Origin: a virus
Length of the DNA stretch: 24,339 nt
Virus record (IMG/VR): IMGVR_UViG_3300022746_000050
Coordinates: 1-24,339 of that record
Reading direction: 5' to 3' (one strand)
The notes under the pieces were generated by a model. It was not told the origin of the DNA and made no database searches. It saw only the letters and a program-made list of their open reading frames with translations. Of this stretch, positions 2,457 through 23,189 are shown one piece after another. How positions within the stretch are numbered: position 1 is the first letter of the stretch; every line of letters begins with the position of its first letter. The position numbers and the translations under genes were made by a program.

Positions 2457-3001
2457 TGGGCGTTCCAAATGTATTCGGATCAGCGACAACCGCTATTCCG
2501 CTGACACAATTAGATGCAAACTTTAATACTCCCGCTACCCTGGGTAATACTTCTGTTGGATTAGGGAATACCACTACTACAGTAGGAAATTTGGCGTTAA
2601 CTAACGCTACAATTACTGAAATTCAGGAAACAGCTAATGTGACTGCCACGGCTGCTAACGGCACAATCAATGTGGATGTGTTGTCTAATGTGGTTTATTA
2701 CTTAACATCTAATGCTGCTGCCAACTGGACTATTAATTTCCGTGGAAATTCAGCCACTACTTTAAATACTGTAATGGCAACTAACGCATCTTTATCGGCA
2801 TCGGTATTGGCAAGCCAAGGACCTACTGCTTACTACAATAATAATGTCACTATTGATGGTGCAGCAACTAATGTGAAATGGCAGGGCGGATCAGCGCCAA
2901 CTAGCGGAAATGCCAACTCGGTTGATTGTTATAGCTATGTCATTATCAAAACAAGTACCAATACTTACAATGTTTTTGCAAGCCAAACTCAATTCAAATA
3001 G
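2456..3001 (+). CDS. Putative virion/fibre-associated protein, 181 aa
   Basis: The start ATG shares one base with the preceding stop (TAATG), so translation is probably coupled. The protein is rich in Asn, Thr and Ala with very few charged residues, typical of beta-structured fibre parts. Residues about 29-55 contain the module GNTSVGLGNTTTTVGNLALT, which recurs twice in the fibre-like protein at 5521-6747. The C-terminal half (TINVDVLSNVVYYLTSNAAA onward to VFASQTQFK) resembles beta-sandwich tails of aquatic phage structural proteins that end in a polar aromatic strand. No enzymatic motif is visible. It is probably a virion decoration or fibre-base protein. Exact role is unknown. Confidence 0.6.
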   Translation: MGVPNVFGSATTAIPLTQLDANFNTPATLGNTSVGLGNTTTTVGNLALTNATITEIQETANVTATAANGTINVDVLSNVVYYLTSNAAANWTINFRGNSATTLNTVMATNASLSASVLASQGPTAYYNNNVTIDGAATNVKWQGGSAPTSGNANSVDCYSYVIIKTSTNTYNVFASQTQFK

Positions 3002-3011
3002 GATTTAGTTA

Positions 3012-4724
3012 ATGCCACGCTTATCTAAAATCGGTGCTGCTGCTGTAGGTGCTTTTGGTTGGGCTAATTCATCCGCAGCCACTTCCAATGTATCAGTTAC
3101 CTATCTTATGGTAGCTGGCGGTGGTGGTGGTGGTGGTGGCGAATCAACTAATGGTGCTGGTGGCGGAGGTGGTGGTGCTGGTGCTGGTGGTCTTTTGTAT
3201 GGCACAACAACTGCTAACCCAAGAACTTCTTATGTTGTTACGATTGGCGGTGGAGGTTCTGGCGGAGCAAGCAATGGTTCTGGCGCTGCTCCTGGATCTA
3301 ATGGATCAAACACTACAGTATTTTCTTTAACTGCTATAGGCGGTGGTGCTGGTGCTTCTGAAGGCGCTGGAGGTGCTGGAAATGGAGGTTCAGGAGGTGG
3401 CGCTGGTGGAGATGGAGGTGGCGCACAAGGAACGGGAACTTCTGGTCAAGGATACGATGGCGGAATAAATGCAAGCCGTTGCGGTGGTGGTGGTGGTGGA
3501 GCTAGTGCAGTAGGTGGACCTGGTATTTCTACTAGAGGTGGCGCTGGTGGAAATGGAAGCGCTTACTCTATAAGCGGAGCATCTGTAACTTACGCTGGTG
3601 GTGGCGGAGGTGGTGGTGGTAATAGTACTCAAGCTGGTGCTTCTGGTGGAGCAGGAGGTGGCGGCACAGGTGGCGCATCTCAAGGTGCTGGCGTATCTGG
3701 CGGAGGTATTGCTGGTGGTAATGGTACTGCTAATACTGGAGGTGGTGGTGGTGGTACTGGTGCGGGCAATAGCCCTAATGGTGGATCTGGAGGATCTGGT
3801 GTAGTTATTATTTCTTATGCAAGTCCTCAAAAATTTACTGGGGGAACTGTAACCACTTCTGGCGGAAATGTTATTCACACATTTACAAGCTCTAGCTATT
3901 TTGTTGGAAATTCTGCGCCATCTTATTCCGCAACATATTTAATTGTTGCTGGCGGAGGTTCTGGAGGTTCTAGAGTTGATCGTGGTGGCGGAGGTGGTGG
4001 CGCTGGAGGTTATGTTACTGGAACAACCAGTTTAATAGTTGGTTATAACTACACAATTACAGTAGGTGGAGGTGGAGCTTCATCTGGTTCTGGTTCAGCA
4101 GGAAGTTCTGGTACTGATTCTTCTATTCCAAATGCTTTAATACCGCTTACCACAGCAGTTGGTGGTGGCGCTGGAGGTTCAGGCGGTGGCGGTAATGGTG
4201 GTTCTGGCGGAGGTAGCGCAGGAGATGGATCTCCTAACGGAACGGGTACTGCTGGTCAAGGAACTAATGGCGGTACAGGTGGCGGTAATGGTAATGATTT
4301 TGGCGGAGGTGGTGGCGGTGGTAGCAATACTGGTGGTGCTGGAGGAACAAGCAGCGGAGGTGGTGTAGGCGGTGCTGGTACCTCTAATAGCATTACTGGA
4401 TCATCTGTTACATATTGTGGCGGTGGTGGCGGAGGTGGTGCATCAAATATTGGAAACTCTATTCCTGGAGGTGCTGGTGGTTCTGGCGGAGGTGGCGCAG
4501 GTGGCGCTAAAGGAACAAATCCTGGTGGTAACGGTACGGCTAATCTTGGCGCTGGTGGCGGTGGTTCAGATAACGCAACTAGTGGTGCTGGTGGTTCTGG
4601 CGTAGTTATTTTGTCTGTGCCTACTGCAAACTATACTGGAACGGTTACAGGAAGTCCTACTGTCACTACTAGCGGATCAAACACTATTATTAAATACACA
4701 AGTTCTGGAACTTATACAGCGTAA
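3012..4724 (+). CDS. Glycine-rich adhesin-like tail protein (two tandem Gly-rich domains)
   Basis: The 570-residue protein is dominated by Gly-Gly runs. Two homologous halves are visible. The first begins near residue 29 with VTYLMVAGGGGGGGG and closes near 262-297 with GVVIISYASPQKFTGG. The second begins near 305 with ATYLIVAGGGSGG and closes with GVVILSVPTANYTGT. Each half has the (Y)LxVAGGGGGG entrance and GVVIxS exit of the phage glycine-rich domain family. By analogy with the S16-type gp38 adhesin, such Gly-rich stretches can pack as polyglycine-II helices and carry receptor-binding loops. It lies among fibre genes, so a host-recognition role is likely but inferred. Strong codon repetition (GGT/GGC/GGA) makes this region prone to recombination and assembly error. 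Confidence 0.8.
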   Translation: MPRLSKIGAAAVGAFGWANSSAATSNVSVTYLMVAGGGGGGGGESTNGAGGGGGGAGAGGLLYGTTTANPRTSYVVTIGGGGSGGASNGSGAAPGSNGSNTTVFSLTAIGGGAGASEGAGGAGNGGSGGGAGGDGGGAQGTGTSGQGYDGGINASRCGGGGGGASAVGGPGISTRGGAGGNGSAYSISGASVTYAGGGGGGGGNSTQAGASGGAGGGGTGGASQGAGVSGGGIAGGNGTANTGGGGGGTGAGNSPNGGSGGSGVVIISYASPQKFTGGTVTTSGGNVIHTFTSSSYFVGNSAPSYSATYLIVAGGGSGGSRVDRGGGGGGAGGYVTGTTSLIVGYNYTITVGGGGASSGSGSAGSSGTDSSIPNALIPLTTAVGGGAGGSGGGGNGGSGGGSAGDGSPNGTGTAGQGTNGGTGGGNGNDFGGGGGGGSNTGGAGGTSSGGGVGGAGTSNSITGSSVTYCGGGGGGGASNIGNSIPGGAGGSGGGGAGGAKGTNPGGNGTANLGAGGGGSDNATSGAGGSGVVILSVPTANYTGTVTGSPTVTTSGSNTIIKYTSSGTYTA

Positions 4725-7659: not shown

Positions 7660-8594
7660 TGGGTTCAGCTACCGAAATTATTACTGATGTTGTTGCTGTA
7701 GCGGTTTCTTTTATTGCTGGACCTGAAGTAGGTGCTGCTATTTTAGGTTTTGATACCGCTGCTGCTGCCGTAGAAGCTGGTTACGCTATGGAAACTTTAG
7801 CTACCCTTGGTGGTGCTACTACTAGCGCAGCATCTTCCGCTGTTAATACTGCTGCTGCTGGTGGAGATGCTGAAGCTATTTTAAAAGCTGCTGCTATTGG
7901 TGGTGCTTCTGGAGCTGTGGCGGGTTATGTTGGTGGAGAAGTTGGCGGTGGTGTAGAAGCCCCTGGACAAGCAGGACCAACGGCTGCTGAACTGGGATAT
8001 ACACCTCCACCATCACAAGTGATTGAACCTACTGGTATTGCTGGAGCAACCGATTCTGCTACTGCTGGAAGAATTGGGGGCGCTGGTGCTGGAGGATTTA
8101 CTAGAGGATTTACTCAAGCTGAGCTTTCTGGTCAAAACTTGCAGACTGCACTAAGGCGTGGTGAAATTGGTGGAATAACAGGGTTAGCAACCTCAGGAAT
8201 AAGTGAATTGTTGCAAGAAGGCGGAGCTACTCCTAGAGAAGCAAAGACACTTACAGCTTTATCAGGTCCTTATTTATCCAAAGAAATTGCTGGTTATTTT
8301 CCAACTTCTACTCCAGCATCACAAGTTAGCGGAACATCCTCTCGTCAAACTTCCGCTGGAGGATTACCAACTACAGGCTCACGCTCATTAGGCGGTGGAG
8401 GCGGAGGTGGTTACTATCCTGCCGTAGGATCTGCTGCATTAGGTCAAGCTCTTAATGTTGGTGGCGCTCAGTCTGGTACAGGGTCAACAGGTGGTTATGG
8501 AGCTGGTGGAGAATCGCTTAGCCCTGAAACAGGTGGTAAACAGCAAACAGTATGGAATATTGAATCGTTGCGGGTAAAACCAGAGGAATCTTAA
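7659..8594 (+). CDS. Putative internal/ejection protein, Ala-Gly-rich with glycine zipper
   Basis: The 311-residue protein is dominated by Ala, Gly, Thr and Ser. Residues 8-31 (ITDVVAVAVSFIAGPEVGAA) are hydrophobic and could insert into membrane. Residues 78-98 (AAIGGASGAVAGYVGGEVGGG region) show small-xxx-small spacing typical of glycine zippers in channel-forming peptides. AGPTAAELGYTP at 105-116 is the same motif that occurs three times in the next protein. Podoviral ejection proteins often combine membrane-active helices with low-complexity segments, so a DNA-ejection channel component is a fair guess. No enzymatic site is visible. Confidence 0.58.
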   Translation: MGSATEIITDVVAVAVSFIAGPEVGAAILGFDTAAAAVEAGYAMETLATLGGATTSAASSAVNTAAAGGDAEAILKAAAIGGASGAVAGYVGGEVGGGVEAPGQAGPTAAELGYTPPPSQVIEPTGIAGATDSATAGRIGGAGAGGFTRGFTQAELSGQNLQTALRRGEIGGITGLATSGISELLQEGGATPREAKTLTALSGPYLSKEIAGYFPTSTPASQVSGTSSRQTSAGGLPTTGSRSLGGGGGGGYYPAVGSAALGQALNVGGAQSGTGSTGGYGAGGESLSPETGGKQQTVWNIESLRVKPEES

Positions 8595-8595
8595 A

Positions 8596-9810
8596 ATGGC
8601 AAATAAATTAACCAGTTCATTAAAAACTGATCTGCCAGCATTGGCGGAATTATTGCGTTCTAAAGGGCGTGGTAAAGATTCGGTTCTTGCTCACATTACT
8701 CCTAAAGAAGCTGCTTTACTAAAACGCAGAGGTGGGCGTGGAAGTATTAACCCTGCTACTGGATTGCCTGAATTTGATGATGGTGATTTTGTTGATACTG
8801 GTTCTGTAGATGTATCTCCAGCTCCAGCTAGTTATGATACCGCACCCGCAGTAGATCCTGGCGCTGTTTATACTCAAGCCGAACAAGCTGGTCCTACTTA
8901 TGCAGAATTAGGTTACACACCTCAATACACTTATGAAGGCGGTGGAGATATTGGTCCTACCTATGCTGAGATGGGCTACACGCCAGCTTACGGTCCTACT
9001 TACGGTGAATTAGGCTACACACCTGGAGCGCTTCCAGCAACTTATGATCCTATGCAAGCATCACAAGAAGGCTTTGCTTATCCTGGATCTATGGGGCAAA
9101 CACTTCCTACTGGTGGTATTTATGGTCAAGATTATGCCAGCGTTTATGCGCCCATAACCTATAGCCCTGCTGATTTACAGCGTATTGCTGCTGGTGAATC
9201 TCCAGAAGCACAATTTGAAGCATTGTCTGATGAAGATAAAAAGAAAGTTGAAGAAGAAGCTAAAAAGACAGGTAAAGATTGGAAAGACGCATTGATGGGT
9301 CTTGCTGCTGCTGGTTTGATTGGTGGTCTTTTAGCTAAAAAACAGCAAACTGCTGGTACTCAGGCTGCTGAGCAAGCAAAACAAGCTGCTCAAGAAGTTA
9401 AAGCAATTGCTGCTCCGTACCAAATTCGTGGCACTAATTTAATGCGTGCTGCTGAAAAAGGTGAGTTGTCTGCTGCTAACCAACAAATTGTTAATGCTGC
9501 CCGTGCCCAAGCTGCTCAAAACATTCAGCGTAGAGGCGGTGTTGGCGTGTTGCAATATGCTAATTCTATTGCCGATTTGACTGATCGTTTATTACAAAAT
9601 CAATTTAATCAAGGACTTGCAGTTAGCCAAATTGGCGATAATTATGCCTTGCAAGCTATTCAAACTGGTCTATCAGGTCAACAAGCGGTTACACAAGCTA
9701 ATGCCAACTTCTATACTCAATTAGCTGGTATGTTAAGCCCATATATTTTCCAAACCTTAGGAACTAATGCTCCTACGGCTGCTCAACGACAAACTGGAAT
9801 AACACCGTAA
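8596..9810 (+). CDS. Putative internal virion/ejection protein with AELGYTP repeats
   Basis: Residues 29-60 (SVLAHITPKEAALLKRRGG and NPATGLPEF) match a motif pair I recognise from internal virion proteins of many podo- and siphoviruses. Residues 99-143 carry three GPTYxExGYTP repeats. Around residues 233-256 lies a hydrophobic segment (ALMGLAAAGLIGGLLAKKQ). The C-terminal 130 residues are helical and Gln/Ala-rich (QAAQNIQRRGGVGVLQYANS, FNQGLAVSQIGDNYALQAIQ), typical of ejectosome-type packing. It starts two bases after the preceding stop. A role in the internal core or DNA ejection is inferred from these features and gene order. Confidence 0.65.
   Translation: MANKLTSSLKTDLPALAELLRSKGRGKDSVLAHITPKEAALLKRRGGRGSINPATGLPEFDDGDFVDTGSVDVSPAPASYDTAPAVDPGAVYTQAEQAGPTYAELGYTPQYTYEGGGDIGPTYAEMGYTPAYGPTYGELGYTPGALPATYDPMQASQEGFAYPGSMGQTLPTGGIYGQDYASVYAPITYSPADLQRIAAGESPEAQFEALSDEDKKKVEEEAKKTGKDWKDALMGLAAAGLIGGLLAKKQQTAGTQAAEQAKQAAQEVKAIAAPYQIRGTNLMRAAEKGELSAANQQIVNAARAQAAQNIQRRGGVGVLQYANSIADLTDRLLQNQFNQGLAVSQIGDNYALQAIQTGLSGQQAVTQANANFYTQLAGMLSPYIFQTLGTNAPTAAQRQTGITP
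8890..9024 (+). repeat. Three GPTYAELGYTP-type repeats
   Basis: Residues 99-109 (GPTYAELGYTP), 120-130 (GPTYAEMGYTP) and 133-143 (GPTYGELGYTP). The previous gene carries a fourth copy (GPTAAELGYTP at its residues 106-116). The exact conservation in otherwise low-complexity sequence suggests a short binding peptide. Confidence 0.9.
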
Positions 9811-9811
9811 T

Positions 9812-11290
9812 ATGGCTACTAATCCTAACGAATCTCAAGACTTGTTTAAAAAACAGTTGGAACAAACACGCCCAGAGCGTGAAAAAAAAGAAGCTGACAT
9901 TCTTAAAGAAATGTCTGGAGAGCCTAAGGGTGGCGGTGCAGAACTTCCCATCACTGGTGTTGCCCCTGATTTAACTAAGATTTTGGAGCAAGACAGAAAA
10001 GCCAAGACAGTTAGAGAAAAAATGGGATTAAAGTCCCAAGTGGCAGAACAACTATTAAAATCTCAACAAGCAGAAGCTCAAGCAGCAGAACAAAAAACTA
10101 TTGGTCAAGCCCAAGCCAAAGGTCAATACGCTATTCAAGAAGCAGAAGCGTTTAAAAAAGTAGATGATGAGCGCAAAAAGAAATTGGCTCAAATGCAGAT
10201 TCCTGAGTTTCAGCCTACACAAGATAATTTATTGACACTTGGAACTATGGCAAGCCTTATCGCTGTAGTTGGATCTGTAGTTGGTGGTCAAGGTGGTTTA
10301 TCAGGTATTGGCGCTGTAAACGCTATGGCTGGCATGATGCAAGGGTATCAAGCTGGTCGTAAAGATATTTTTGATCGTGAAAAAGCCAAGTTTGATAAAG
10401 ATATGCAGACTTTAAAAGCTAAACAAGATGCTTTAGTTAAAGAGTTTGAAGCTGCTTACAAGCGTATTCCATACGATATGGCTGAAGCCCGTGCTGGCAT
10501 GGAAGTAACCTTGGCTAAATATGATGCCAAGCTATTAAAGGCTGTTTATGACAAACAAGGTCCTGAAGCTGTATTAAAAATATTAGACCAGTCTATAAAA
10601 GACACCATTAACTTAGATAAGATGACCGCTAAAGCCTTAGGTGGTGGTAAAGGTGGCGGTTCTAAGTCAGCTATTAATGAGCGCTTCCAAAACACCGTTA
10701 TCCGTTCTGCTAATGAAACATTGCGTTCTCTTGAATTGATGGAAAACATCGGTATTGATATTGGAAAAGGCGGTTTAGGTGGTGTTGTAGGAAAAGGAAC
10801 AATGACTTCCGAAGCCCTTGCAAACATTAGTAGAAAGATGACTAGCCAAGATCAATTGCGTTATAACGCTGCTGCTGGCGGTATGGCGCTTGAATTAGCT
10901 TATGTAATGAACGGTGGCTACAAACCTAATGAAAGCCAGATTACAGAGCTTAAAAATCTATACTTGGCTACACCTCAAGATTCTTATGAAACTGCTGCAT
11001 TTAAGTTTGCTGATGTGGTCGCAAAGCTCAAGGCTGCTGTTGAAGTTGCCCCTGCTTATACAGAAGATCAAAAGCGCAACAATGAAATGTTGCTGAAAAA
11101 AGTTGAGCGTTATGCAACTCCAGAAGAAATTTTGCAAAAAATTAGCGGTGAGCCAGTAAAACAAGATCCTTATGTTCGTGCGCCTCAAGCAAACATCAAA
11201 ACCGTAAGAAATCAAGCTGAATACGATGCGTTACAGCCTGGAGAGCAATATTATGAAGATGGAAAACTTTATAGAAAGCCAGCAAAATGA
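9812..11290 (+). CDS. Putative large internal/ejection protein with coiled coils
   Basis: The 492-residue protein is strongly helical. Residues 1-140 are Lys/Glu/Gln-rich with heptad-like spacing. Residues about 143-180 are hydrophobic (LLTLGTMASLIAVVGSVVGG) and could span a membrane. Residues 185-270 form another charged coiled-coil stretch (DREKAKFDKDMQTLKAKQDA). The C-terminal part is mixed (GGMALELAYVMNGGYKPNES), with a tail ending PGEQYYEDGKLYRKPAK. That last segment resembles short virion-protein C-termini with a YxxDGKxY turn. It overlaps the next start by four bases (ATGA). Function as an ejection or core protein is inferred. Confidence 0.6.
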   Translation: MATNPNESQDLFKKQLEQTRPEREKKEADILKEMSGEPKGGGAELPITGVAPDLTKILEQDRKAKTVREKMGLKSQVAEQLLKSQQAEAQAAEQKTIGQAQAKGQYAIQEAEAFKKVDDERKKKLAQMQIPEFQPTQDNLLTLGTMASLIAVVGSVVGGQGGLSGIGAVNAMAGMMQGYQAGRKDIFDREKAKFDKDMQTLKAKQDALVKEFEAAYKRIPYDMAEARAGMEVTLAKYDAKLLKAVYDKQGPEAVLKILDQSIKDTINLDKMTAKALGGGKGGGSKSAINERFQNTVIRSANETLRSLELMENIGIDIGKGGLGGVVGKGTMTSEALANISRKMTSQDQLRYNAAAGGMALELAYVMNGGYKPNESQITELKNLYLATPQDSYETAAFKFADVVAKLKAAVEVAPAYTEDQKRNNEMLLKKVERYATPEEILQKISGEPVKQDPYVRAPQANIKTVRNQAEYDALQPGEQYYEDGKLYRKPAK

Positions 11291-12642
11291 CCAGTAAATT
11301 TGGCGGTGAACCTATAGAACCAGTAAGCGAAGGCGGTTCAAAATACGGTGGAGAGCTGATTGAAAGACCAAGTAAATCCATTGCTAAACGCCCTGGAAAT
11401 CCATCTTTTCCACAACAAATGTACGGCATGGCTTATGGCGCTGGTACAGAACTGTTAGGCGCACCTGGAGAGATTGAGGAATTTTTTACTACTAGCGGTA
11501 AGGGCGAAAAATTAGGCGGTGAAGGTCAAGCCTTTCCTACTGCTGCTGAGATTCGTAAAGGCACAAGCGAAACATTCAAGCCAGCAAGAGGAACGGAAGC
11601 CATGCAAACCGTTGGTCAAGTTGGCGCTGATATTGCCATGCTCGCTCCTGCTGCATACCGTGGTGTTGGCAAAATGGTGGGTGGTACAACACAAGAAGGT
11701 GAGCGCATTGCGGGTATTGCAGAGCGTCTTGGATTCAAACTATCGCCATCACAAGTCCGTGCTGACGCTCCTGTAGCAGAAAAGGGCGCTGCTGGATTTG
11801 CCAAACAAAATCAAACTCTTGCAAACAGATTGGCTAGTAACGGCACTGGAAAATCTGTTGATGAGATTACTGAACCATTTTTGCGTAGCAGAATCAAAGA
11901 GTTAGGAAAAGAATTTGATGATGTTTATAAAGGTAAAGAGTTTGCTATTGACCCTAGCGCTGCAACATTTTTACAAAATTTAAGTTACTACGAACAGCAA
12001 CTTGGTTTTGGTGGTGTGCCAGCGGTTCGTTCTGCTGCTGATTCTATTTTGAATAACATCCAGACTGGCAAGATTGCTGGTGATGACTTACAACGCTTGC
12101 GTAATGCTCTTACTCAAACCGCTAGAACCAGCTCAGATCGTGGTAAAGCCCACGAAATCTATGATTTAGTTGATAAATTAGATGAAGCTGTTGAATCTAA
12201 AAATCCTGGATTAAAAGCAACTTTAGATGTTTTAAGACCAAAATATCGCAATACCGTGATTCTTGAGGACTTGTACAACTCAGGCGGTATTAAACAGGGC
12301 AATATCAGCTTAGAAAAACTAGGTAATCAGTTAGGTGATAAAGCTGCATTGCGTAGAAATCCACAAGATATTGACAATTTAGGGATGCTTGGAAGTCAAT
12401 TAGGCTTAAAAGCAAGATGGGAAAGTACAGGCGGTGATATTCCTGCCGTTATTGAAAAGACCACTAGAACTCATGGTCCTATATCTGCTGCCATCAGAAG
12501 CCTTGGAACACCGCTAAGAACTCGTCAAGCCCGTGCAGCTCAGCGCTATGCACAGCGTGGCACAACACCACAGAAGTTGGGCGAGGCGTTAGGCACAGTA
12601 CCCGCTATTGAAGAAGTTATTGGACCTAGTGAAAGAAAATGA
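11287..12642 (+). CDS. Putative internal virion protein, helical
   Basis: The 451-residue protein begins with two short near-repeats (SKFGGEPIEPVSEGG, SKYGGELIERPSK), followed by helical regions through residue 430. MYGMAYGAGTELLGAPGEIE near residue 41 recalls a segment common in large phage internal proteins. Residues 255-320 (DDLQRLRNALTQTARTSSDR, IYDLVDKLDEAVESKNPG) look like the helical bundle seen in virion proteins annotated near the ejection genes. It overlaps both neighbours by four bases. No catalytic motif is recognised. It closes the ejection-protein block. Confidence 0.58.
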   Translation: MTSKFGGEPIEPVSEGGSKYGGELIERPSKSIAKRPGNPSFPQQMYGMAYGAGTELLGAPGEIEEFFTTSGKGEKLGGEGQAFPTAAEIRKGTSETFKPARGTEAMQTVGQVGADIAMLAPAAYRGVGKMVGGTTQEGERIAGIAERLGFKLSPSQVRADAPVAEKGAAGFAKQNQTLANRLASNGTGKSVDEITEPFLRSRIKELGKEFDDVYKGKEFAIDPSAATFLQNLSYYEQQLGFGGVPAVRSAADSILNNIQTGKIAGDDLQRLRNALTQTARTSSDRGKAHEIYDLVDKLDEAVESKNPGLKATLDVLRPKYRNTVILEDLYNSGGIKQGNISLEKLGNQLGDKAALRRNPQDIDNLGMLGSQLGLKARWESTGGDIPAVIEKTTRTHGPISAAIRSLGTPLRTRQARAAQRYAQRGTTPQKLGEALGTVPAIEEVIGPSERK

Positions 12643-12845
12643 GTAAAAAACAAAAAGGTCTAAATCCAGAGTTAGAAGATGCCGTTAGCAAGCTGCTAGT
12701 GGCTGTTATGGCTGATGATATGGCTTCCCTTACCGATAAATGTAAGGTGATTGACCGTGCAATAAACATCGAAAAGCTAAAGCAAAAGATAAGTGATGAT
12801 GAATGGGGTAGTGGATTTATTGCAGTAGATGATGAAGAAGGTTAA
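12639..12845 (+). CDS. Small conserved podovirus protein (DDEWGSGF motif)
   Basis: The 68-residue acidic helical protein starts inside the previous stop (ATGA). It carries LTDKCKVIDRAINIEKLKQK followed by DDEWGSGF and an acidic tail. I recognise the pattern TDKxKVxDRAxxxExxKxKxxDDEWGSGF from small podovirus proteins that lie near terminase or lysis genes. The function is not known to me. A small-terminase-like or packaging accessory role is possible but not supported by any DNA-binding motif here. Confidence 0.62.
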   Translation: MSKKQKGLNPELEDAVSKLLVAVMADDMASLTDKCKVIDRAINIEKLKQKISDDEWGSGFIAVDDEEG

Positions 12846-12876
12846 ACTATGAATAGTTTACTTTCTAGGGGATATT

Positions 12877-13095
12877 ATGGATGCTGTAACTTTAATTCGC
12901 TTGGCGTTAGCCGTCATCTCAGACCGTTTGATTACGATACTGGCTTTGCTGGCATCGAGCATCATGTGTGGATGGACCATGTGGAATCCCATGTGGGAAA
13001 GAGTAACAACACTAGCCATATTCGTAGTATTCAGTTATCTTGTAGTCAATACCAAAGAGAGGAACAAAAATGAAACAAGCGAAAAGACCGAGTGA
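12877..13095 (+). CDS. Two-span small membrane protein, holin-like candidate
   Basis: ATG 12877 has AGGGGATATT before it, a good ribosome binding site. The 72-residue product begins MDAVTLIRLALAVISDRL and has hydrophobic spans at about 16-35 and 44-58, then a charged tail (NTKERNKNETSEKTE). The DRLITILALL motif recurs in small podovirus membrane proteins. A competing frame starting at 12849 lacks hydrophobic spans and family resemblance. This could be a holin, antiholin or inner-membrane protein. It ends 26 bases into the next gene. Confidence 0.65.
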   Translation: MDAVTLIRLALAVISDRLITILALLASSIMCGWTMWNPMWERVTTLAIFVVFSYLVVNTKERNKNETSEKTE

Positions 13096-13282
13096 AGTCA
13101 ATCAACAGATTGCTAAGTCAATACGCCCTCAGTTGCCCCGTGATGGCAGCGCTGGCGGTGTAAATCACCACGAATCAGGTAAGCGCCCACCATCAGGGTT
13201 TACTGCTGTTTGGAACTTTAACGGCAATACCAACACTAAAGATTCTTCAACAACAAAACCAGAAAAGAATAGGATTTGCTAA
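13070..13282 (+). CDS. Small polar protein of unknown function, 70 aa
   Basis: The gene starts at ATG 13070 preceded by GAGAGGAACAAAA, a plausible ribosome binding site. It is basic at the N-terminus (KQAKRPSEVNQQIAKSIRPQ) and polar elsewhere, probably disordered, with KRPPSGFTAVWNFNGNTNTK near residue 38. It touches the next gene (stop 13280-13282, start 13283). I do not recognise it. Confidence 0.5.
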   Translation: MKQAKRPSEVNQQIAKSIRPQLPRDGSAGGVNHHESGKRPPSGFTAVWNFNGNTNTKDSSTTKPEKNRIC

Positions 13283-13621
13283 ATGGCTAACAATATTGCC
13301 TTTCAACCGATGGGCAAGACGGTTCGTCTTGTTGCTAGTAGCTCGGCTGCTAACAATGCAAGTATCAATTCCGATAGCCCTGCAAATCAATACCGTATTG
13401 CTAATCACTCTGGATTGCCTGTTTATGTCTGGATCAGCCCAATTGGTTCACCAGTCAATGTGGCTGCGCCTGTAGGTTCTGCTTACGCTATTCCTGTACC
13501 AGCCAATGTGGTTTCAATCATTACTGGACCACAAGTGTCAGCAAACGCCAATGTACAGATTTCCGTCATTTGCGAATCAGGAACTCCAGATGTTTACATC
13601 ACGCCAGGCGAAGGTTTGTAA
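13283..13621 (+). CDS. Small beta-rich protein, paralogue of 5191-5517
   Basis: The 112-residue product shares with the earlier protein the NQYRI core (PANQYRIANHSGLPVYVW here) and the ending YITPGEGL (YITPGDGV there). The spacing between these two marks is similar. Both have Ala/Val/Asn-rich strands and few charges. One copy sits in the fibre block and this one sits just before the lysis genes. It may be a virion decoration protein placed late in the operon to obtain a different dose. Function is unknown. Confidence 0.62.
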   Translation: MANNIAFQPMGKTVRLVASSSAANNASINSDSPANQYRIANHSGLPVYVWISPIGSPVNVAAPVGSAYAIPVPANVVSIITGPQVSANANVQISVICESGTPDVYITPGEGL

Positions 13622-13628
13622 ACGCATA

Positions 13629-13805
13629 ATGAAATCGAGAACCATGTGGTTCTCGTTTCTTTTAGTGGTATTCGGAGCGTTGTATGACAATTTCTCTTAT
13701 CTGCAAAACATCATTGATCCTAAGTATTACGGTGTACTGCTTGTGGTTATCGGAATTATTGTGGCTATACTTCGTTTTATAACTAGTCAACCAATGAGAG
13801 ATTGA
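13629..13805 (+). CDS. Holin candidate, two membrane spans
   Basis: I chose ATG 13629 because it begins MKSRTMWFSFLLVVFGAL after the preceding stop; a start at 13506 would add 41 residues inside the previous gene in an unrelated frame. The 58-residue protein has hydrophobic segments at about 6-20 and 34-52 (YYGVLLVVIGIIVAILRFI) with a short turn containing DPKYYG. The MKSKTMWF...YGxxxxxxGIxxAxLRFxT layout is a small holin-like family often found directly ahead of Rz and endolysin genes, which is the case here. It probably permeabilises the inner membrane to release the endolysin or start spanin action. Confidence 0.7.
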   Translation: MKSRTMWFSFLLVVFGALYDNFSYLQNIIDPKYYGVLLVVIGIIVAILRFITSQPMRD

Positions 13806-13806
13806 T

Positions 13807-14223
13807 ATGTTTGGTTTGAATCCTTATGTCTTAATCGGTGCTGCGGTAGCATTAGTGATCTCTTTCGGTAGTGGCGTAGGTGTGGGTTATAAGTGGGAAA
13901 AGGCAAATTTTAATGCTTACAAGCTAGAACAAGAGCAAAATAGCCGTAAGAAAGAAGCTGAACATCAAGCGCAGACAGATCAGATTAGGAAGGACAAAGA
14001 TGCCAAGATTGCTGATATTAACAATAAGCTCGTTGATGCTATTACAGAGTTGCGCAAGCGCCCCGCCAGACCAGCAGAGATACCCACAGATGGACAAAGT
14101 TGCTCTGGGCGATCCCTTTATGCCGAGGATGCAATCTTTCTTGAACGGGAAGCTGCCAGAGCCGACATCCTCCGCACAGCCCTCGAAGCCTGTTACAGCC
14201 AATACGACAAAATAATTAAATGA
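13807..14223 (+). CDS. Rz: Inner-membrane spanin subunit (Rz-like)
   Basis: The protein has a single N-terminal membrane anchor (residues about 8-28, VLIGAAVALVISFGSGVGVG) and then a long charged helical region (YKWEKANFNAYKLEQEQNSR through KIADINNKLVDAITELRKRP). This is the class II i-spanin layout. The C-terminal part (YAEDAIFLEREAARADILRT) is also typical of Rz proteins. It lies one base after the holin candidate stop, and an outer-membrane spanin gene is embedded in its +1 frame. The stop overlaps the endolysin start by four bases. It should link the inner membrane to Rz1 across the periplasm and fuse or disrupt the outer membrane in the last step of lysis. Confidence 0.88.
   Translation: MFGLNPYVLIGAAVALVISFGSGVGVGYKWEKANFNAYKLEQEQNSRKKEAEHQAQTDQIRKDKDAKIADINNKLVDAITELRKRPARPAEIPTDGQSCSGRSLYAEDAIFLEREAARADILRTALEACYSQYDKIIK
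14000..14215 (+). CDS. Rz1: Embedded outer-membrane lipoprotein spanin (Rz1-like)
   Basis: This 71-residue frame lies wholly inside the Rz-like gene, in the +1 frame, as in lambda. It begins MPRLLILTISSLMLLQSC, a hydrophobic signal peptide with lipobox LQSC and predicted lipidated Cys18. After it come Pro-rich segments (SAPPDQQRYPQ, PEPTSSAQPSKP) typical of o-spanins. AGGAAGGACAAAG just before ATG 14000 gives a strong ribosome binding site inside the Rz coding region, which argues for real translation. The protein is expected to sit on the inner leaflet of the outer membrane and pair with Rz. Gln at -2 of the lipobox is somewhat unusual. Confidence 0.86.
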   Translation: MPRLLILTISSLMLLQSCASAPPDQQRYPQMDKVALGDPFMPRMQSFLNGKLPEPTSSAQPSKPVTANTTK

Positions 14224-14735
14224 CAGAAAACTTCCAACCTTCTTTAGACCTAGTTCTCAAGAGCGAGGGAGGATTCGTTCAAGACCCTGAAGATAGCGGA
14301 GGCGCTACTAACCTTGGCGTAACCATTAAAGCCTGGTCAGAATACTTAGGGCGTGCTGTCAATGTGAAAGAAATGAAAGAGCTAACCCCATTGATGGTTA
14401 AGCCTTTTTACAAAGAAAAGTATTGGAATCCTGCTGGATGCGATGCTTTTGCCAAAGGAGTTGACTATGCTGTATTTGACTTTGCCGTTAATGCAGGTGT
14501 TAGAAGATGTATCAAAACCTTACAAAAGGCAGTTGGCGCAGAGCCAGATGGCGTTTTGGGTTCTATTACACAGGCACTTATTCGACAGCATGATCCTAGC
14601 GATTTGTTGGACAAGTTTTCTAAAGCAAAGATCGAGTTCTATCAAAGCCTCAACAAACCACGATTTGAAAAAGGATGGTTAAATAGAGTAGAAGAAGTGA
14701 AGAAAAACGCTGAGAGGATGATTGCCCATGCCTAA
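14220..14735 (+). CDS. Endolysin, GH108-type muramidase with C-terminal binding domain
   Basis: The 171-residue protein has the GH108 (DUF847) hallmark LKSEGGFVQDPEDSGGATNL near its start. Glu16 of the EGG motif is the expected catalytic acid. The helical core continues through DYAVFDFAVNAGVRR near residue 83, and the C-terminal 70 residues (LQKAVGAEPDGVLGSITQAL) match the PG_binding_3 region that accompanies this family. It cleaves the glycan strands of peptidoglycan. No signal peptide is present, so export should depend on a holin. The start overlaps the Rz-like stop by four bases. Confidence 0.92.
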   Translation: MTENFQPSLDLVLKSEGGFVQDPEDSGGATNLGVTIKAWSEYLGRAVNVKEMKELTPLMVKPFYKEKYWNPAGCDAFAKGVDYAVFDFAVNAGVRRCIKTLQKAVGAEPDGVLGSITQALIRQHDPSDLLDKFSKAKIEFYQSLNKPRFEKGWLNRVEEVKKNAERMIAHA

Positions 14736-14952
14736 GAATGTAAATCTGTCGGTTGGTCGTGGTGAGAAGCTACCTGCTTCCCGTGGCGGTGGTCTAACAG
14801 AAAAAGGCAGAAGGAAATACAATAAAGCAACAGGATCAAAGCTGAAAGCCCCAACCAAATCAGGACCACGGCATAAATCATTTTGCGCAAGGTCTAAGAA
14901 TTGGAAGGGGGAAAGAGGAAAGGCTGCTCGTAGGCGTTGGGGTTGCCGTTAA
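14728..14952 (+). CDS. Small basic phage protein (DUF6321-like)
   Basis: ATG 14728 is chosen over TTG 14722; GAGAGGATG precedes it within the endolysin gene. The 74-residue product is strongly basic with GGGLTEKGRRKYNKATGSKL and KAPTKSGPRHKSFCARSKNW, the recognisable core of a small phage family with the order LTxKGRxKYNxxTGSxLKAP...RxxSFCAR. It ends RRRWGCR. Nucleic-acid binding or a virion role are both possible; function is not established. Its stop overlaps the convergent glycosyltransferase stop. Confidence 0.72.
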   Translation: MPKNVNLSVGRGEKLPASRGGGLTEKGRRKYNKATGSKLKAPTKSGPRHKSFCARSKNWKGERGKAARRRWGCR

Positions 14953-15689
14953 GCAGTAGGAATTAACCTACCCTCAAACGCATAAGTCCCAATATGGGAT
15001 AGCTGTACCCAAGGCGCTGCCCAAACTTTACCGCCAGCCATACGCCATTCACGGCAAAAATGATAGTCCTCAGACAATAAGCGATTGGTTTCAGGCTCAA
15101 TAGAGGTAGCAAAGAACTCTTTAATCTGCTCGTTTTGTTGCATATTACCGCTAAGATCGCCAACATCATTGGTATAGCTAGGTACTTTTTCAGCTAGTTT
15201 TTCCAGAACTTCACGCTTAATCAGCATAAATCCTGTACCTCCATTAAAGATTTCTACAGGATCTTTGATTGGAACGGTGACTTCACCAGCGTAGCCAACT
15301 AGGTTCACTACAAAACTTCCTGTGTGGTATCTCAAGTCTTGTTCGGGAATACCTTTATCCATAGCCATTTTTACTGTAGTCCAGTTAATTTCTTTTTTAG
15401 GGTAAATGCCACAGATAATCTCTTTATCAGCATCGAGCATCGGAATAATGTGTTCTGGAAAGAAGCGAATGTCTGAATCAATAAACATCAAGTGCGTGTT
15501 ATCTGTCTTTAAAAACTGATGTGCTAACGCATTTCTAGCCCGTGTAATCAGGCTCTCATTGAACATAAAGCTAAACGATAAGCCAACACCATGCTGAGCA
15601 AATACTTGTGACATAGTAAGAACGGATTGAGTGTAAAAGCCAGCACATTGACCGCCATACATCGGAGTTGCTACAAAGACTTTTTTCAT
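14949..15689 (-). CDS. GT-A-fold glycosyltransferase-like protein
   Basis: The start at 15689 (MKKVFVATPMYGG) has AGGAAATT directly before it; a longer frame from 15722 would overlap the radical SAM gene with unrelated residues. The 246-residue protein contains ESLITRARNALAHQFLK followed by THLMFIDSDIRFFPE. The DSD at residues 71-73 is the DxD-type metal and nucleotide-sugar binding motif. GGTGFMLIKREVLEKL later matches the acceptor-side motif of this GT-A class. LSEDYHFCREWRMAGGKVWA near residue 205 has the ED pair often needed for catalysis. It would transfer a sugar to an unknown acceptor. As the last gene of a coupled cassette it may act on the product of the preceding genes. Confidence 0.8.
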   Translation of the reverse strand: MKKVFVATPMYGGQCAGFYTQSVLTMSQVFAQHGVGLSFSFMFNESLITRARNALAHQFLKTDNTHLMFIDSDIRFFPEHIIPMLDADKEIICGIYPKKEINWTTVKMAMDKGIPEQDLRYHTGSFVVNLVGYAGEVTVPIKDPVEIFNGGTGFMLIKREVLEKLAEKVPSYTNDVGDLSGNMQQNEQIKEFFATSIEPETNRLLSEDYHFCREWRMAGGKVWAAPWVQLSHIGTYAFEGRLIPTA

Positions 15690-15696
15690 AATTTCC

Positions 15697-16791
15697 TCAT
15701 ACAAAGTTATCGGTGCTGGCATCTAACACCTGGTTAATAATGATGTTTTTGCGGTCATTAGAACATTCGTGCATACAGCGATGCTTAGCGTTAAATGACT
15801 GCATATATTCTTTTGTTTCCTGGCTAAACCACAGGTCCTTAAAACGCTTATCTTTAATTGATCCAATGCACCCTGTACTGTCAAAAGCCTTGTTATGGCA
15901 CGCATAGACCTTTTGATCCGCCCCAATTACAGGTACGGTCTGCATGATGTAGCATTGCTTGTAAGACCTGATATTGCTGTGTGAGCTACCTGGCTCGATG
16001 TTGTAAGTTGAATTGACGCTGAACTTGCTATCTACCAGATTTTGAATCTGAGCAAGCTGCGTGTTAACTTTCTCTGCGATTTTCGAATGGTAGTCATAAA
16101 AGTCAGGCGTGTACATAGGAGAAAAACGGACATTTTCAACGCCAGCAAATTTAAGTATTTCGGTAAATTCATAGAGGTTATCGCAGTTATTTTGATGAAC
16201 AATGTAGTTAACTGCTAAGTCGCAATCTTCATTCTTGATCTTAGCAAAGTTCTGTATGTTATTGATTACACTATTAAAACTCTTTTCAGGAACATTCCTA
16301 AAGCGTTTCATTTGAGCGCCATCGGTGTAGTCCATTGATACCCTGACCCACTTAGCTTTAGCCAACACCTCGGCACGATCTTTGACTAAGTTTTGCCCGT
16401 TAGTAATGATGGATAGATCAATGCCATAGTCCAGCGTGGCTTGCATGATTTTGACAATATCCTTGTGCATGAGAGGTTCGCCACCACCAGAGTAAGTCAC
16501 AGCCTTCACGCCCATGCTCCACAGGTCATCAAGGATCTCCATCATCTTCTCAGTAGAAATGACATCATTCTCATTCATATCTTCGTGCATCCCGCTGATG
16601 ATATGTTCTTCAGGACCACCATCCTTAACCCTAAATCCTGTGCTGTAAACGCAAAAGAAGCACCCGTGATTGCATAAATTGATTGGCTTGATGCGTACAT
16701 ATAGCGGTGCTGTGATCTCCCCCGCCACAAAAGAATTTAGCTTTTTTGGAAAGTTAAATATCTTGTAATCGCTGTATTTGTTTTGCCTCAT
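15697..16791 (-). CDS. Radical SAM protein with SPASM-like C-terminal cysteines
   Basis: The 364-residue protein has the radical SAM cluster motif CNHGCFFC at residues 40-47 (CX3CX2C), followed by VTYSGGGEPLMHKDI (SAM-binding GGE region) near residue 96 and a barrel-like middle. The C-terminal part carries further cysteines: KQCYIMQTVPVIGADQKVYAC, then GCIGSIKD, FKDLWF and CMHECSNDRK, which fits a SPASM or twitch domain binding auxiliary iron-sulphur clusters. Such enzymes modify peptides, sugars or other small substrates by radical chemistry. The substrate is unknown. The start overlaps the E1-beta-like stop by four bases, which ties it to the thiamine-diphosphate genes. Confidence 0.86.
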   Translation of the reverse strand: MRQNKYSDYKIFNFPKKLNSFVAGEITAPLYVRIKPINLCNHGCFFCVYSTGFRVKDGGPEEHIISGMHEDMNENDVISTEKMMEILDDLWSMGVKAVTYSGGGEPLMHKDIVKIMQATLDYGIDLSIITNGQNLVKDRAEVLAKAKWVRVSMDYTDGAQMKRFRNVPEKSFNSVINNIQNFAKIKNEDCDLAVNYIVHQNNCDNLYEFTEILKFAGVENVRFSPMYTPDFYDYHSKIAEKVNTQLAQIQNLVDSKFSVNSTYNIEPGSSHSNIRSYKQCYIMQTVPVIGADQKVYACHNKAFDSTGCIGSIKDKRFKDLWFSQETKEYMQSFNAKHRCMHECSNDRKNIIINQVLDASTDNFV

Positions 16792-17303
16792 ATTAAGTCC
16801 TTGTACTCCACTAAGATGGCTGATTCCTTACGGTTATCAATTAATTCGTACCCCTTGTTAACCATGCTTTCGGTTAAAAGCTGGTACACGGGAATATTAA
16901 TCATATCCCGCAAAGCGTTAGAGAAGTCCTGCGTATGAGTAGCCCCTGTGTACAAAGGCTTTTTCACATTACCAACTACGCAGCGAATGATGACAGCAGG
17001 ATCAAACTCGCCCTGGCTAATGTCTTTGATCTTATCTAAATGATTGACTAGCGCATCCATGCAATTCATTAAAAAGTCCATGCGTTCAATAAAAACAACT
17101 GGTCGCAAGCCTATTAAAGACAAACCAATAGCCATGCCCAACATCAAGTTCTCGGCTACTGGCATCTCAATAATCTGATTGTCTGGCACATTCTTGAGCG
17201 TTCCCATAGCACGCCCTTTTTGCAATCCATAACCAATAAACCGAACCTTAGGATCAGCAGCAAGGTAAGTGTTTCCCCTAATCAGAGCATCCTTATAGCT
17301 CAT
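16788..17303 (-). CDS. E1-beta / transketolase PYR-domain-like subunit (thiamine diphosphate), single domain
   Basis: The 171-residue protein matches the N-terminal pyrimidine-binding domain of E1-beta of pyruvate or branched-chain dehydrogenases. It shows FIGYGLQKGRAMG, EMPVAENLMLGMAIGLSLIG and LRPVVFIERMDFLMNCMDAL. Glu51 in VAEN corresponds to the catalytic Glu that activates the cofactor. Usual E1-beta is about 325 residues and has a C-terminal transketolase domain; that is absent. Paired with the PP-type protein at 17557-18171 it could make a minimal heteromeric enzyme, similar in size to the two-subunit sulfopyruvate decarboxylase. The substrate is unknown. Overlaps of four bases join it to both neighbours. 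Confidence 0.82.
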   Translation of the reverse strand: MSYKDALIRGNTYLAADPKVRFIGYGLQKGRAMGTLKNVPDNQIIEMPVAENLMLGMAIGLSLIGLRPVVFIERMDFLMNCMDALVNHLDKIKDISQGEFDPAVIIRCVVGNVKKPLYTGATHTQDFSNALRDMINIPVYQLLTESMVNKGYELIDNRKESAILVEYKDLI

Positions 17304-17560
17304 TCTTGTGCCTTTCTTAGTATTGCTTTAGCAAATGCAATGTAATTAAAAGGTTCAATTGGATGTTTTGGTTGAACCTGAGTTATTAAAAATGGTAACA
17401 GTACTTTCTGTATTTCCTCATCTGTTAGTGTCTTTGCTGGATGGGTGTAGAGTGGCTTTTCGTTTCTGTATTCATAATCAGGCAATCTTTGGTCAATAAC
17501 CCAAGTCCATCCTGTTATGTCATGTATTTGATACATCCACGCTACTGGTTCATTGTTCAT
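17300..17560 (-). CDS. Small PVAWMY-family protein between the two TPP subunits
   Basis: The 86-residue protein starts MNNEPVAWMYQIHDITGW and then has KPLYTHPAKTLTDEEIQKVL. The EPVAWMY...PLYTHP pattern occurs in many small bacterial and phage proteins of unknown function. The position is odd: it separates the E1-alpha-like and E1-beta-like genes, with four-base overlaps on each side. It may be an insertion of a mobile small gene or a partner of the enzyme. Nothing in the sequence points to a catalytic role. Confidence 0.65.
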   Translation of the reverse strand: MNNEPVAWMYQIHDITGWTWVIDQRLPDYEYRNEKPLYTHPAKTLTDEEIQKVLLPFLITQVQPKHPIEPFNYIAFAKAILRKAQE

Positions 17561-18171
17561 TTACGCTCCTTAAAGACAATATGTTTTTTAGTGCCGTTAC
17601 CAGCGTGAGGGTAGGTGGCTTTATATTTATTACGAATAACGCAAGAGGGCATTTCAAACTTAAATTTGTTTGGATTTCGCTCCTCAAAGCTCGTATCTAC
17701 TTGCCTGTCGTTATCTTCAATAATGAACATACACGGTAGGTCCTGACCTTCTACAAACATCACAGCTTCATAGAAATGCCCTTGCTCTTCAGCGCCATCA
17801 CCTAGGAAACAGTACACCCAGTTCTCGCTGCCTGATTCTTTGAGGGCGTAAGCCACGCCAGCAGCTATAGCGCAAGTGCCAGCAAGCACAGACGAAGTAA
17901 AAAAGTGACGGTTGCGGTCATAAACAAACATAGAATTGCCACCGAGAATATGTGCCAAAAGCTCATCTGCGGGTATTCCAGAAAGTAAAGCGTGATGATG
18001 ATTCCGATGAGTACTGAAAATCCAATCTCCATCTTTAATATCCTCCGTAAACAAATCAATTAAAAAGTCCTCGTTACCGCCTGATAAGTGAATCAGGTAG
18101 GGCAAATCCCCTGCCTCCCAATGCTCAGCTACCTTTTTCTCAAAATCAATTAATTCTTGTTTGCTTACCAT
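17557..18171 (-). CDS. E1-alpha-like thiamine-diphosphate PP-domain subunit, shortened
   Basis: The 204-residue protein follows the E1-alpha pattern: STHRNHHHALLSG (residues 53-65), a Gly-rich stretch with SSVLAGTCAIAAGVAYALK, then LGDGAEEQGHFYEAVMFV (GDG at 124-126) and LPCMFIIEDNDRQVDTS. GDG plus the downstream Asn (EDN, residues 152-154) is the metal-diphosphate binding motif; canonical E1-alpha has ENN. Usual E1-alpha is about 320-360 residues. Here the region after the cofactor motif is short, ending HIVFKERK. It should bind thiamine diphosphate together with the PYR subunit two genes downstream. No lipoyl-bearing E2 or E3 is nearby, so a dehydrogenase complex is unlikely unless it borrows host parts. 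Confidence 0.82.
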   Translation of the reverse strand: MVSKQELIDFEKKVAEHWEAGDLPYLIHLSGGNEDFLIDLFTEDIKDGDWIFSTHRNHHHALLSGIPADELLAHILGGNSMFVYDRNRHFFTSSVLAGTCAIAAGVAYALKESGSENWVYCFLGDGAEEQGHFYEAVMFVEGQDLPCMFIIEDNDRQVDTSFEERNPNKFKFEMPSCVIRNKYKATYPHAGNGTKKHIVFKERK

Positions 18172-18611
18172 GGTTCATCCAATTCAAATAAACGCCATTT
18201 ATCCGTTGGTACATCGTAGAAAAACTCACCTTGATTGACAGCCCTGTTTGGCACTTCAATGATGGGCGATGTAATGATCTCCATTACATTGATCCAATAC
18301 GCCCATTTCAGGTATTGATTGACTACGCACATATAGGTTGGTAAGTCGTTCAGAAAGAGTTTTTCCTTGCGTAATGGCACATGGATACTTGGATATGGGC
18401 AATAGTGCCAATGCTCACGCCACAAGCGCATCTCTACCTCGACATACGAATGAGGTATGAGGTCCTTGAAAGCCACTAGATCCACCTTGTATTTGTTTGG
18501 ATTAGGAATGGAATCGAGGCAATGCACTTGTTTTAGCCAACGCATTACGCTGCGCCTAGCAATCGGATCGCAAGCGTCATGGAGCTTCTGACTGAACGGC
18601 TTAGTAATCAT
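18165..18611 (-). CDS. Unknown protein, possible PD-(D/E)XK-like nuclease fold
   Basis: The 148-residue protein has YKVDLVAFKDL (Asp44) followed by YVEVEMRLWREHW (Glu58, Glu60) and then HVPLRKEKLF. The D-x13-E-V-E spacing followed by a strand with R/K resembles PD-(D/E)XK nucleases, but the diagnostic Lys of ExK is Met61-Arg62 here, so this is only a suggestion. Several Trp/His/Tyr residues are conserved-looking. It ends inside the E1-alpha-like gene (7-base overlap) and starts in an ATGA overlap with the gene before it. I do not recognise a named family. Confidence 0.55.
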   Translation of the reverse strand: MITKPFSQKLHDACDPIARRSVMRWLKQVHCLDSIPNPNKYKVDLVAFKDLIPHSYVEVEMRLWREHWHYCPYPSIHVPLRKEKLFLNDLPTYMCVVNQYLKWAYWINVMEIITSPIIEVPNRAVNQGEFFYDVPTDKWRLFELDEPW

Positions 18612-18820
18612 CTAGCAAAGACAACGGCAGCCCAAAAAACCCCAACAAGTGTGGCAAAGTACAAAAACAATTCAAAGTTCTTCCTGCGAACTGACTTGTA
18701 GTTTCCTAGCAACACCGATTGAATTAGCTCCATGTCATCACAGATTGGCGGTCTGCGATCAGGATGGTAGTTAGAGCCGATCTCTACGCCAGTCCTAGTG
18801 CGGTATGGTACTTGTTTCAT
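18608..18820 (-). CDS. Small conserved phage protein with C-terminal membrane span
   Basis: The 70-residue protein begins MKQVPYRTRTGVEIGSNYHP, a pattern (YRTRxGVxIG) I recognise from many small phage proteins. Residues about 50-68 (LFLYFATLVGVFWAAVVFA) make one membrane helix. AAGGGG precedes the start by a few bases. The basic N-terminal side would face the cytoplasm. Function is unknown; the family is usually carried in recombination/early regions of tailed phages. Confidence 0.65.
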   Translation of the reverse strand: MKQVPYRTRTGVEIGSNYHPDRRPPICDDMELIQSVLLGNYKSVRRKNFELFLYFATLVGVFWAAVVFAR

Positions 18821-18872: not shown

Positions 18873-19262
18873 CTAACAGTCCTCTGGTAGAGAACTCACC
18901 TCTGAGCTAGTGGAGGGTATTTCCTCTATCAACACACGGATAGCCCCACCTTTGATCGGTTTACCCCGAACAATGGACAGTTCATCCACCTGAAAATCAT
19001 CGTCAAATACGCCAGCATCTTGCAAAGCATCGAGGACAGATTTGATGCGATTATCAATATCAATCTTCCGCTTGTCACGGGGAAACAACACCATTGAAAT
19101 TCGCAACTTCTTATCTCCTAATTTAGGTACTCGGTATTCAACAACATAGTCTGATACTGCTTGCTTAAATGCCCTGCCTTCTTTTGAAAGTCGCATCATC
19201 CCTCGATAGACTGTGCGATACGAGTTCACACTTGGAGGGAATGGCAAGTTCAAAAAGATCAT
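18873..19262 (-). CDS. rusA: RusA-family Holliday junction resolvase
   Basis: The 129-residue protein has the RusA hallmark PFPPSVNSYR at the N-terminus and KRKIDIDNRIKSVLDAL in the middle. Asp68, Asp70, Lys74 and Asp89 fall at the same spacing as the catalytic Asp70, Asp72, Lys76 and Asp91 of E. coli RusA. It would cleave Holliday junctions arising during replication or recombination so that DNA can be packaged. It follows an SSB-like and a RecT-like gene in the same direction, completing a recombination module. Its start overlaps the stop of a 49-residue gene (ATGA). Confidence 0.93.
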   Translation of the reverse strand: MIFLNLPFPPSVNSYRTVYRGMMRLSKEGRAFKQAVSDYVVEYRVPKLGDKKLRISMVLFPRDKRKIDIDNRIKSVLDALQDAGVFDDDFQVDELSIVRGKPIKGGAIRVLIEEIPSTSSEVSSLPEDC

Positions 19263-22637: not shown

Positions 22638-23189
22638 TTAGGAATTCCCCCATTGTTGTGCCATCGCATCAGCAATACCCTGAAAAGTCTTGGACCTTAA
22701 CTTCCATCTGTCCTCTGAGGGTGGTAGCTTGTGAACCCTTGCCTCTCTACCAGACACGATGTTCGTAGGCGTAAGCGGTTTAAGCCCTCTGAGCCATAAA
22801 CAGGTTGCTTTGGTTTCACCATGCCCAAACTGCCAAGGTTGAATGATTTGGTCTGGTTTTCTGATTCTGCTGGAAATAATGCTAATCGGGTTCTCTAATG
22901 CAATTTTAGGAATTGGAGCATCAAGCAGCGTTTGAACAAACTTGAGTGCATCAGCTTGCTCTGCTTGTTTATCCTTAAACCATCTTGCACCAGACACCGC
23001 TAAATGAGTGCAAGGCGGGTGAGCTATCATCAAGTCCCAACCATCCTCAAGGATGTCTAAGACATCGCCCTGGTAATGATTGCCAGGCGATTCAGTAGGG
23101 AGTAGGTCGCAACTCATGGCGTAATGCCCTAATTTGGCAAAAGCATCCCGAACCACGCCTGAAAACTCGCAAGCGATTAAAACACGCAT
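22638..23189 (-). CDS. Compact C5-cytosine-methyltransferase-like protein
   Basis: The 183-residue protein carries several methyltransferase marks in order: VLIACEFSGVVRDAF at residues 3-17 (cofactor motif I), IAHPPCTHLAVSG at 55-67 with Cys60 in PPC (motif IV), ALENP at 98-101 (motif VI, ENP in place of ENV), and a C-terminal FQGIADAMAQQWG helix (motif X-like). Normal C5 methyltransferases exceed 300 residues and have a target recognition domain; there is no room for one here. It may methylate DNA with relaxed specificity, need a partner, or act on another substrate. A terminator lies just upstream of its start, so its expression may be kept low. Confidence 0.75.
   Translation of the reverse strand: MRVLIACEFSGVVRDAFAKLGHYAMSCDLLPTESPGNHYQGDVLDILEDGWDLMIAHPPCTHLAVSGARWFKDKQAEQADALKFVQTLLDAPIPKIALENPISIISSRIRKPDQIIQPWQFGHGETKATCLWLRGLKPLTPTNIVSGREARVHKLPPSEDRWKLRSKTFQGIADAMAQQWGNS

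Follow-up and report, generated by a model that had tools for sequence, protein, structure and literature searches.

A conserved E1a–E1b–radical SAM gene trio in lake phages probably reshapes a sugar

The window analysed here is the whole of a 24,339-base IMG/VR virus record (IMGVR_UViG_3300022746_000050), in which five adjoining genes are read leftward on the minus strand. The first, E1a (17557..18171), encodes the PP-domain (alpha-like) subunit of a predicted minimal thiamine diphosphate (ThDP) enzyme (204 amino acids; Pfam E1_dh, 1e-19). It is followed by a variable insert encoding an 86-amino-acid PVAWMY protein (17300..17560) and by E1b (16788..17303), which specifies the PYR-domain (beta-like) subunit (171 amino acids; Transket_pyr, 6e-8). 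The fourth gene (15697..16791) codes for a radical SAM (rSAM) protein of 364 amino acids with a C-terminus resembling a one-cluster SPASM or twitch domain (Radical_SAM, 2e-18; SPASM, 5e-5), and the fifth (14949..15689) for a glycosyltransferase (GT) that is GT-A-like by its FIDSD motif and matches phrog_1574 (1e-48), phrog_34859 'glycosyltransferase' (9e-7) and, weakly, Anp1. On the other side of E1a, and on the same strand, lie two small genes of 148 and 70 codons (18165..18820), which come and go among relatives both with and without the E1a–E1b–rSAM trio. A gene for a RusA-like resolvase (18873..19262), identified by family search, is the constant left neighbour of the insertion site.

All five open reading frames were found where an initial annotation had placed them, together with the ATGA-type four-base overlaps at 17557/17560, 17300/17303 and 16788/16791, and the families proposed there for E1a, E1b, rSAM and GT were matched in Pfam and PHROG searches. 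The 7-base spacing between rSAM and GT applies if GT starts at its second ATG (15689) and not with the longest frame (ATG at 15722), which overlaps rSAM by 26 bases. Strong purifying selection acts on E1a, E1b and rSAM: relative to the nearest relative, dN/dS is about 0.05–0.08 for these genes and for GT (about 0.07 for E1a against L005) and about 0.24 for RecT. In a megablast search with the whole window the sole match consisted of 272 bases of an uncultured phage. Elsewhere in the window, positions 3012–4724 encode a 570-amino-acid glycine-rich protein (Gly_rich_2) with a GC content of 51% and a third-position GC content of 17%, in which it differs from its neighbours.

Viral contigs were scanned independently with E1a and with rSAM as queries, which yielded 66 distinct contigs of the window group, some of which may represent one phage assembled more than once. 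E1b, rSAM and GT were all present in 33 of 33 lake-phage contigs extending at least 3.6 kb beyond E1a. E1b and rSAM are separated by no more than 2 bases in each of the 61 contigs with both genes, and the spacing between rSAM and GT ranges from 9 to 78 bases (49 contigs). The gap between E1a and E1b was empty in 27 of 57 contigs, held a member of the 86-amino-acid family in 14 and other DNA in 16. Because the 86-amino-acid gene is absent from most relatives it is not counted as a member of the unit; its family occurs also upstream of GT in phages without E1. In two contigs (L074:6935-7486 and L196:3784) the insert is a homologue of the DNA methyltransferase encoded at 22638–23189 of the window. 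The conserved unit is E1a–E1b–rSAM with a separate core GT beside it. Of the five-gene cassette suggested initially, the trio was thus retained, and the cassette as such was discarded since most relatives lack the 86-amino-acid gene and GT is a core gene, not a dedicated member.

A scan with GT as query returned at least 599 viral relatives. At the RusA-to-GT site the trio is missing from 45 of the 61 GT-bearing contigs with at least 1.5 kb of upstream sequence, and in the circular 35.6-kb phage MW202753 RusA is directly followed by GT. GT is a core gene of this phage group, whether the trio is there or not. Three changes account for the distribution of the trio on the GT tree, compared with a mean of 14.3 after shuffling, and it therefore tracks lineages and is not scattered. 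The trio is a compact movable plug-in beside the core GT in lake phages. A search of PDB sequences with GT gave no match. In trio-less phages an FkbM methyltransferase gene can be found immediately behind GT (for example L240:6738-7451); it follows GT in 17 trio-less contigs and in none of 16 trio contigs, a contrast that was set aside as evidence since few independent changes underlie it.

The GDG motif of E1a (residues 124–126) is invariant and N154 is kept in most sequences; both align with Mg/ThDP residues of the alpha subunit of pyruvate dehydrogenase (PDH) E1. E51 and H123 of E1b are invariant, the former across split and fused forms of the enzyme. The roles of these residues are presumably those of their counterparts in PDH E1. 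With the GDG...N motif, the catalytic glutamate and the PP plus PYR fold, the pair has the hallmarks of the E1/transketolase ThDP superfamily. The fold was assessed on a model of a fused E1ab homologue representing the window pair (pLDDT 85, pTM 0.89), in which the PYR half matches PDH E1beta (Z 19.9) and transketolase aligns with both domains over 349 residues (Z 19.6). E1b ends after the PYR domain and lacks the C-terminal (transketolase_C) domain of E1beta. A split minimal ThDP enzyme, as initially annotated, is supported by these retained residues and the modelled fold, with ThDP binding and subunit pairing as predictions. The nearest solved sequences to E1a are PDH E1alpha proteins; identity with PDH itself was rejected because the PDH equivalog cut-off is missed (95.5 bits versus 393.85 in NCBIfam).

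In rSAM, the cysteines of the CX3CX2C motif (C40, C44, C47) are invariant among 24 sequences. C280, C298, C339 and C343 are invariant as well; they bear out the extra cysteine motifs noticed earlier and are enough for one predicted auxiliary cluster. A structural model (pLDDT 83; the row from a 735-kb phage was left out of its alignment) matched DesII (Z 24.4), SkfB (23.3), BlsE (23.2), PqqE (21.0), MoaA (19.5) and BtrN (17.4), where ranks less than 1 Z apart count as tied and the peptide maturase SkfB stands about 1 Z from the top. Because SkfB ranks so close, the fold alone cannot fix a sugar substrate. The closest solved sequence is BlsE (2e-8). A PADLOC match to the viperin family pVip (1e-19) reads as a general rSAM signal; the viperin cut-off is missed (57.7 bits versus 180 in NCBIfam), and a role as a defence system was dismissed on these grounds.

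The same trio is present in the 735-kb phage (L004), in the order E1b–rSAM–E1a, and in the archaeon L096, in the order E1a–E1b–rSAM and with an rSAM 40% identical to that of the window. In Nanoarchaeota (L100) and in deltaproteobacteria (L095, L098), E1a and E1b have rSAM paralogues as neighbours; several of the archaeal and bacterial rSAMs counted are paralogues just 20–25% identical to the window protein. In the phylum of Nanoarchaeota and relatives E1a was found in 7 of 327 genomes; for the phylum containing deltaproteobacterium L098 the figure is 1 of 345. The genes are thus kept together in phages, archaea and bacteria, which contradicts a random, separate occurrence. Heptose genes are often found next to the trio, or next to E1a/E1b accompanied by rSAM paralogues, in DPANN archaea, deltaproteobacteria and the 735-kb phage: a GT9 heptosyltransferase-type gene is nearby in L096 and HldE in L100 and L281. 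At L277, a single locus brings together fused E1ab, rSAM and an SDR protein with a kinase and a nucleotidyltransferase of HldE type and a GmhB-like phosphatase. An archaeal contig (L278) carries two diverged E1a/E1b pairs (2372–4505 and 12884–15167), the more diverged of which (2372–3539) is accompanied by HldD-like and cupin genes and has no window-type rSAM adjoining. In a podovirus (L191, MW202801; 4998–9661) an rSAM gene (23% identity to that of the window) is situated close behind the major capsid gene, along with genes for a glycosyltransferase, PhyH, a methyltransferase, a NodB-like protein and a second glycosyltransferase. A distant rSAM (28% identity over 40% of the query) lies within a heptose cluster of cyanophage SynMITS9220M01 (L265:7905-9029).

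HldE, HldD and GmhB genes surround homologues of the trio; heptose genes were seen neither in the 24-kb window nor in the scanned open reading frames of a near-complete 36.8-kb relative (L282/L283). That relative encodes a second GT next to the terminase and an amidoligase–GATase pair; in L282, the amidoligase gene adjoins that of a class-II glutamine amidotransferase (10870–13217), and the GT adjoining the terminase is of type GT2 (7930–8649). Base-modification families had no match among its scanned open reading frames, a subset of all.

In a sister branch, comprising cyanophages and others, E1ab is a single fused chain and a zinc alcohol dehydrogenase takes the place of rSAM. Fused E1ab is directly preceded by the dehydrogenase gene in 76 of 83 cyanophage-type loci; in most of the remaining ones the dehydrogenase gene is one or two genes off, or the contig ends near E1ab. 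Neighbouring genes encode a PfkB protein resembling D,D-heptose-7-phosphate kinase, a nucleotidyltransferase resembling rfaE domain II, an HldD-like epimerase, a capsule-type phosphatase and an SDR protein. On the E1 tree, the window clade has as its sister L053, with split E1 and a zinc dehydrogenase (100/98); L277, with fused E1 and rSAM, falls inside the dehydrogenase branch (99/93). The partner has switched at least three times, three changes being forced by the starred branches. None of the loci examined contained both rSAM and the dehydrogenase, and the respective other partner was absent from the complete record of each of 12 phages of the dehydrogenase type and 9 of the rSAM type, in a search run without internal positive control on records that may be incomplete. 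The swap of partners may reflect different substrates instead of equivalent steps.

Considering the sugar-building genes around the same set elsewhere, the trio probably reshapes a sugar. Gene identity, integrity of the unit, catalytic residues, folds, glycan-gene context in relatives and partner exchange were computed. From there we infer the reaction, its order, the substrate, GT as transfer step and the biological effect. Together, E1a and E1b would form a member of the E1/transketolase superfamily, a minimal ThDP enzyme composed of PP and PYR domains and devoid of the C-terminal domain. rSAM would provide the redox step carried out by the zinc alcohol dehydrogenase in the sister branch, most simply by oxidising a hydroxyl group on the sugar to give a ketone. 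Oxidation is placed before ThDP-dependent carbon–carbon chemistry because alcohol oxidation is the chemistry presumably common to both partner classes. The resulting alpha-hydroxyketone might be cleaved, or extended by a C2 or C3 unit, on ThDP. We propose that the product is an altered sugar, probably heptose-related in some relatives at least, that host enzymes activate it in the case of the window phage, and that it ends up in a surface or virion glycan, plausibly via the neighbouring phage GT, where it might serve receptor masking or virion decoration. The link to heptose is inferred from relatives whose E1 is about 50% identical. The initial annotation envisaged a single pathway of carbon–carbon chemistry, radical modification and transfer; sugar chemistry is the best-supported reading, and neither membership of the 86-amino-acid protein nor dedicated membership of GT was supported. 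We give about even credence to the model as a whole, in which E1ab and rSAM reshape a sugar for a surface or virion glycan by oxidation and ThDP-dependent carbon–carbon chemistry. More tentatively, and with less confidence, it is conceivable that a new sugar-reshaping pathway is common to phages, DPANN archaea and bacteria, with rSAM and zinc dehydrogenase repeatedly interchanged before the ThDP step and with lake phages using it as a plug-in by their core GT.

Precursor supply, with E1ab as a transketolase-like ketose maker for heptose or nucleotide-sugar synthesis, rSAM or the dehydrogenase acting on another intermediate and no new sugar being formed, would agree with the alignment of transketolase over both domains of the fused model and with the heptose-type genes adjoining E1ab in relatives. 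We nevertheless consider it unlikely, as the residues are E1-like and not those of a full transketolase, as hosts possess their own transketolase, and as freshwater phages carry only E1ab and rSAM, with no heptose genes in the regions read. A PDH-like function raising host carbon flux is much less probable: E1a matches an E1 Pfam family and is nearest to PDH E1alpha among solved sequences, yet scores are far under the PDH cut-offs, the E2-binding C-terminal domain is absent, no E2 or E3 gene was noticed in the neighbourhoods read, and E1ab is always paired with rSAM or the dehydrogenase plus glycan genes.

The location of GT amid replication and recombination genes, and the glycosylation of DNA that occurs in some phages, would fit a group made by the trio and put on phage DNA by GT. 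This reading had been left open initially; it is weakened by the lack of base-modification families in the scanned open reading frames of the 36.8-kb relative and by the occurrence of trio homologues within polysaccharide loci of phages and cells, and we regard it as very unlikely, though less so than the PDH-like function. Between these two in probability we rank modification of a peptide or cofactor, with rSAM as a maturase and the E1 pair making its small-molecule partner. Peptide maturation is common among SPASM proteins and SkfB is among the best fold matches of rSAM, but no conserved small open reading frame accompanies the trio and most contigs lack the 86-amino-acid gene. Least probable of all is a chance gathering of separately useful genes at a phage hot spot. 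The site does accept varied small genes, and inserts are tolerated between E1a and E1b, but this explanation is already contradicted by the co-occurrence counts, the three genes recurring as a set in phages, archaea and bacteria that are unrelated, and by the tight overlaps and the purifying selection.

If the sugar-reshaping model is correct, carbon–carbon and radical chemistry would join the means by which phages alter surface or virion sugars, PHROG 34187 and many viral relatives would gain a function, and rSAM and zinc dehydrogenase would offer a natural comparison of two enzymes on the same job. No published account of the trio or of the E1ab–dehydrogenase pair was found in the open-licence literature, a weak sign of novelty, and a literature search for a threitol/transketolase capsule pathway gave no result. 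Heptose genes, but not E1ab, come up in one paper on cyanophages (PMC7378029).

The E1 alpha and beta subunits of PDH and BCKDH, as well as AcoAB, share with window E1ab the PP and PYR domains, the catalytic glutamate and histidine and the Mg-ligand motif. By contrast, E1ab is about half their size, lacks the C-terminal domain of E1beta, is accompanied by no E2 or E3 noticed and scores far below the family cut-offs. PHROG 34187 ('transketolase central region-containing protein', cyanophages S-SM2 and P-TIM68; listed as of unknown function) is homologous to E1a–E1b, with identities of 52–53% to E1a and 46–51% to E1b. It differs in being a fused chain that is associated with a zinc dehydrogenase and a large sugar cluster and not with rSAM. 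Phage O-antigen-modifying genes of the gtr type likewise combine a phage-borne GT with optional modifying genes; flippase genes of that type were not noticed here, and the chemistry is that of ThDP and rSAM enzymes. DesII and BlsE, which act on sugar nucleotides or nucleosides, are the best or near-best structural matches to rSAM, but share only 13–22% identity with it and belong to antibiotic pathways. In the butirosin and neomycin routes, the rSAM enzyme BtrN and a zinc alcohol dehydrogenase perform the same sugar-alcohol oxidation. By analogy, and although BtrN is a weaker match to rSAM, this pair may provide a precedent for the exchange of partners beside E1ab.
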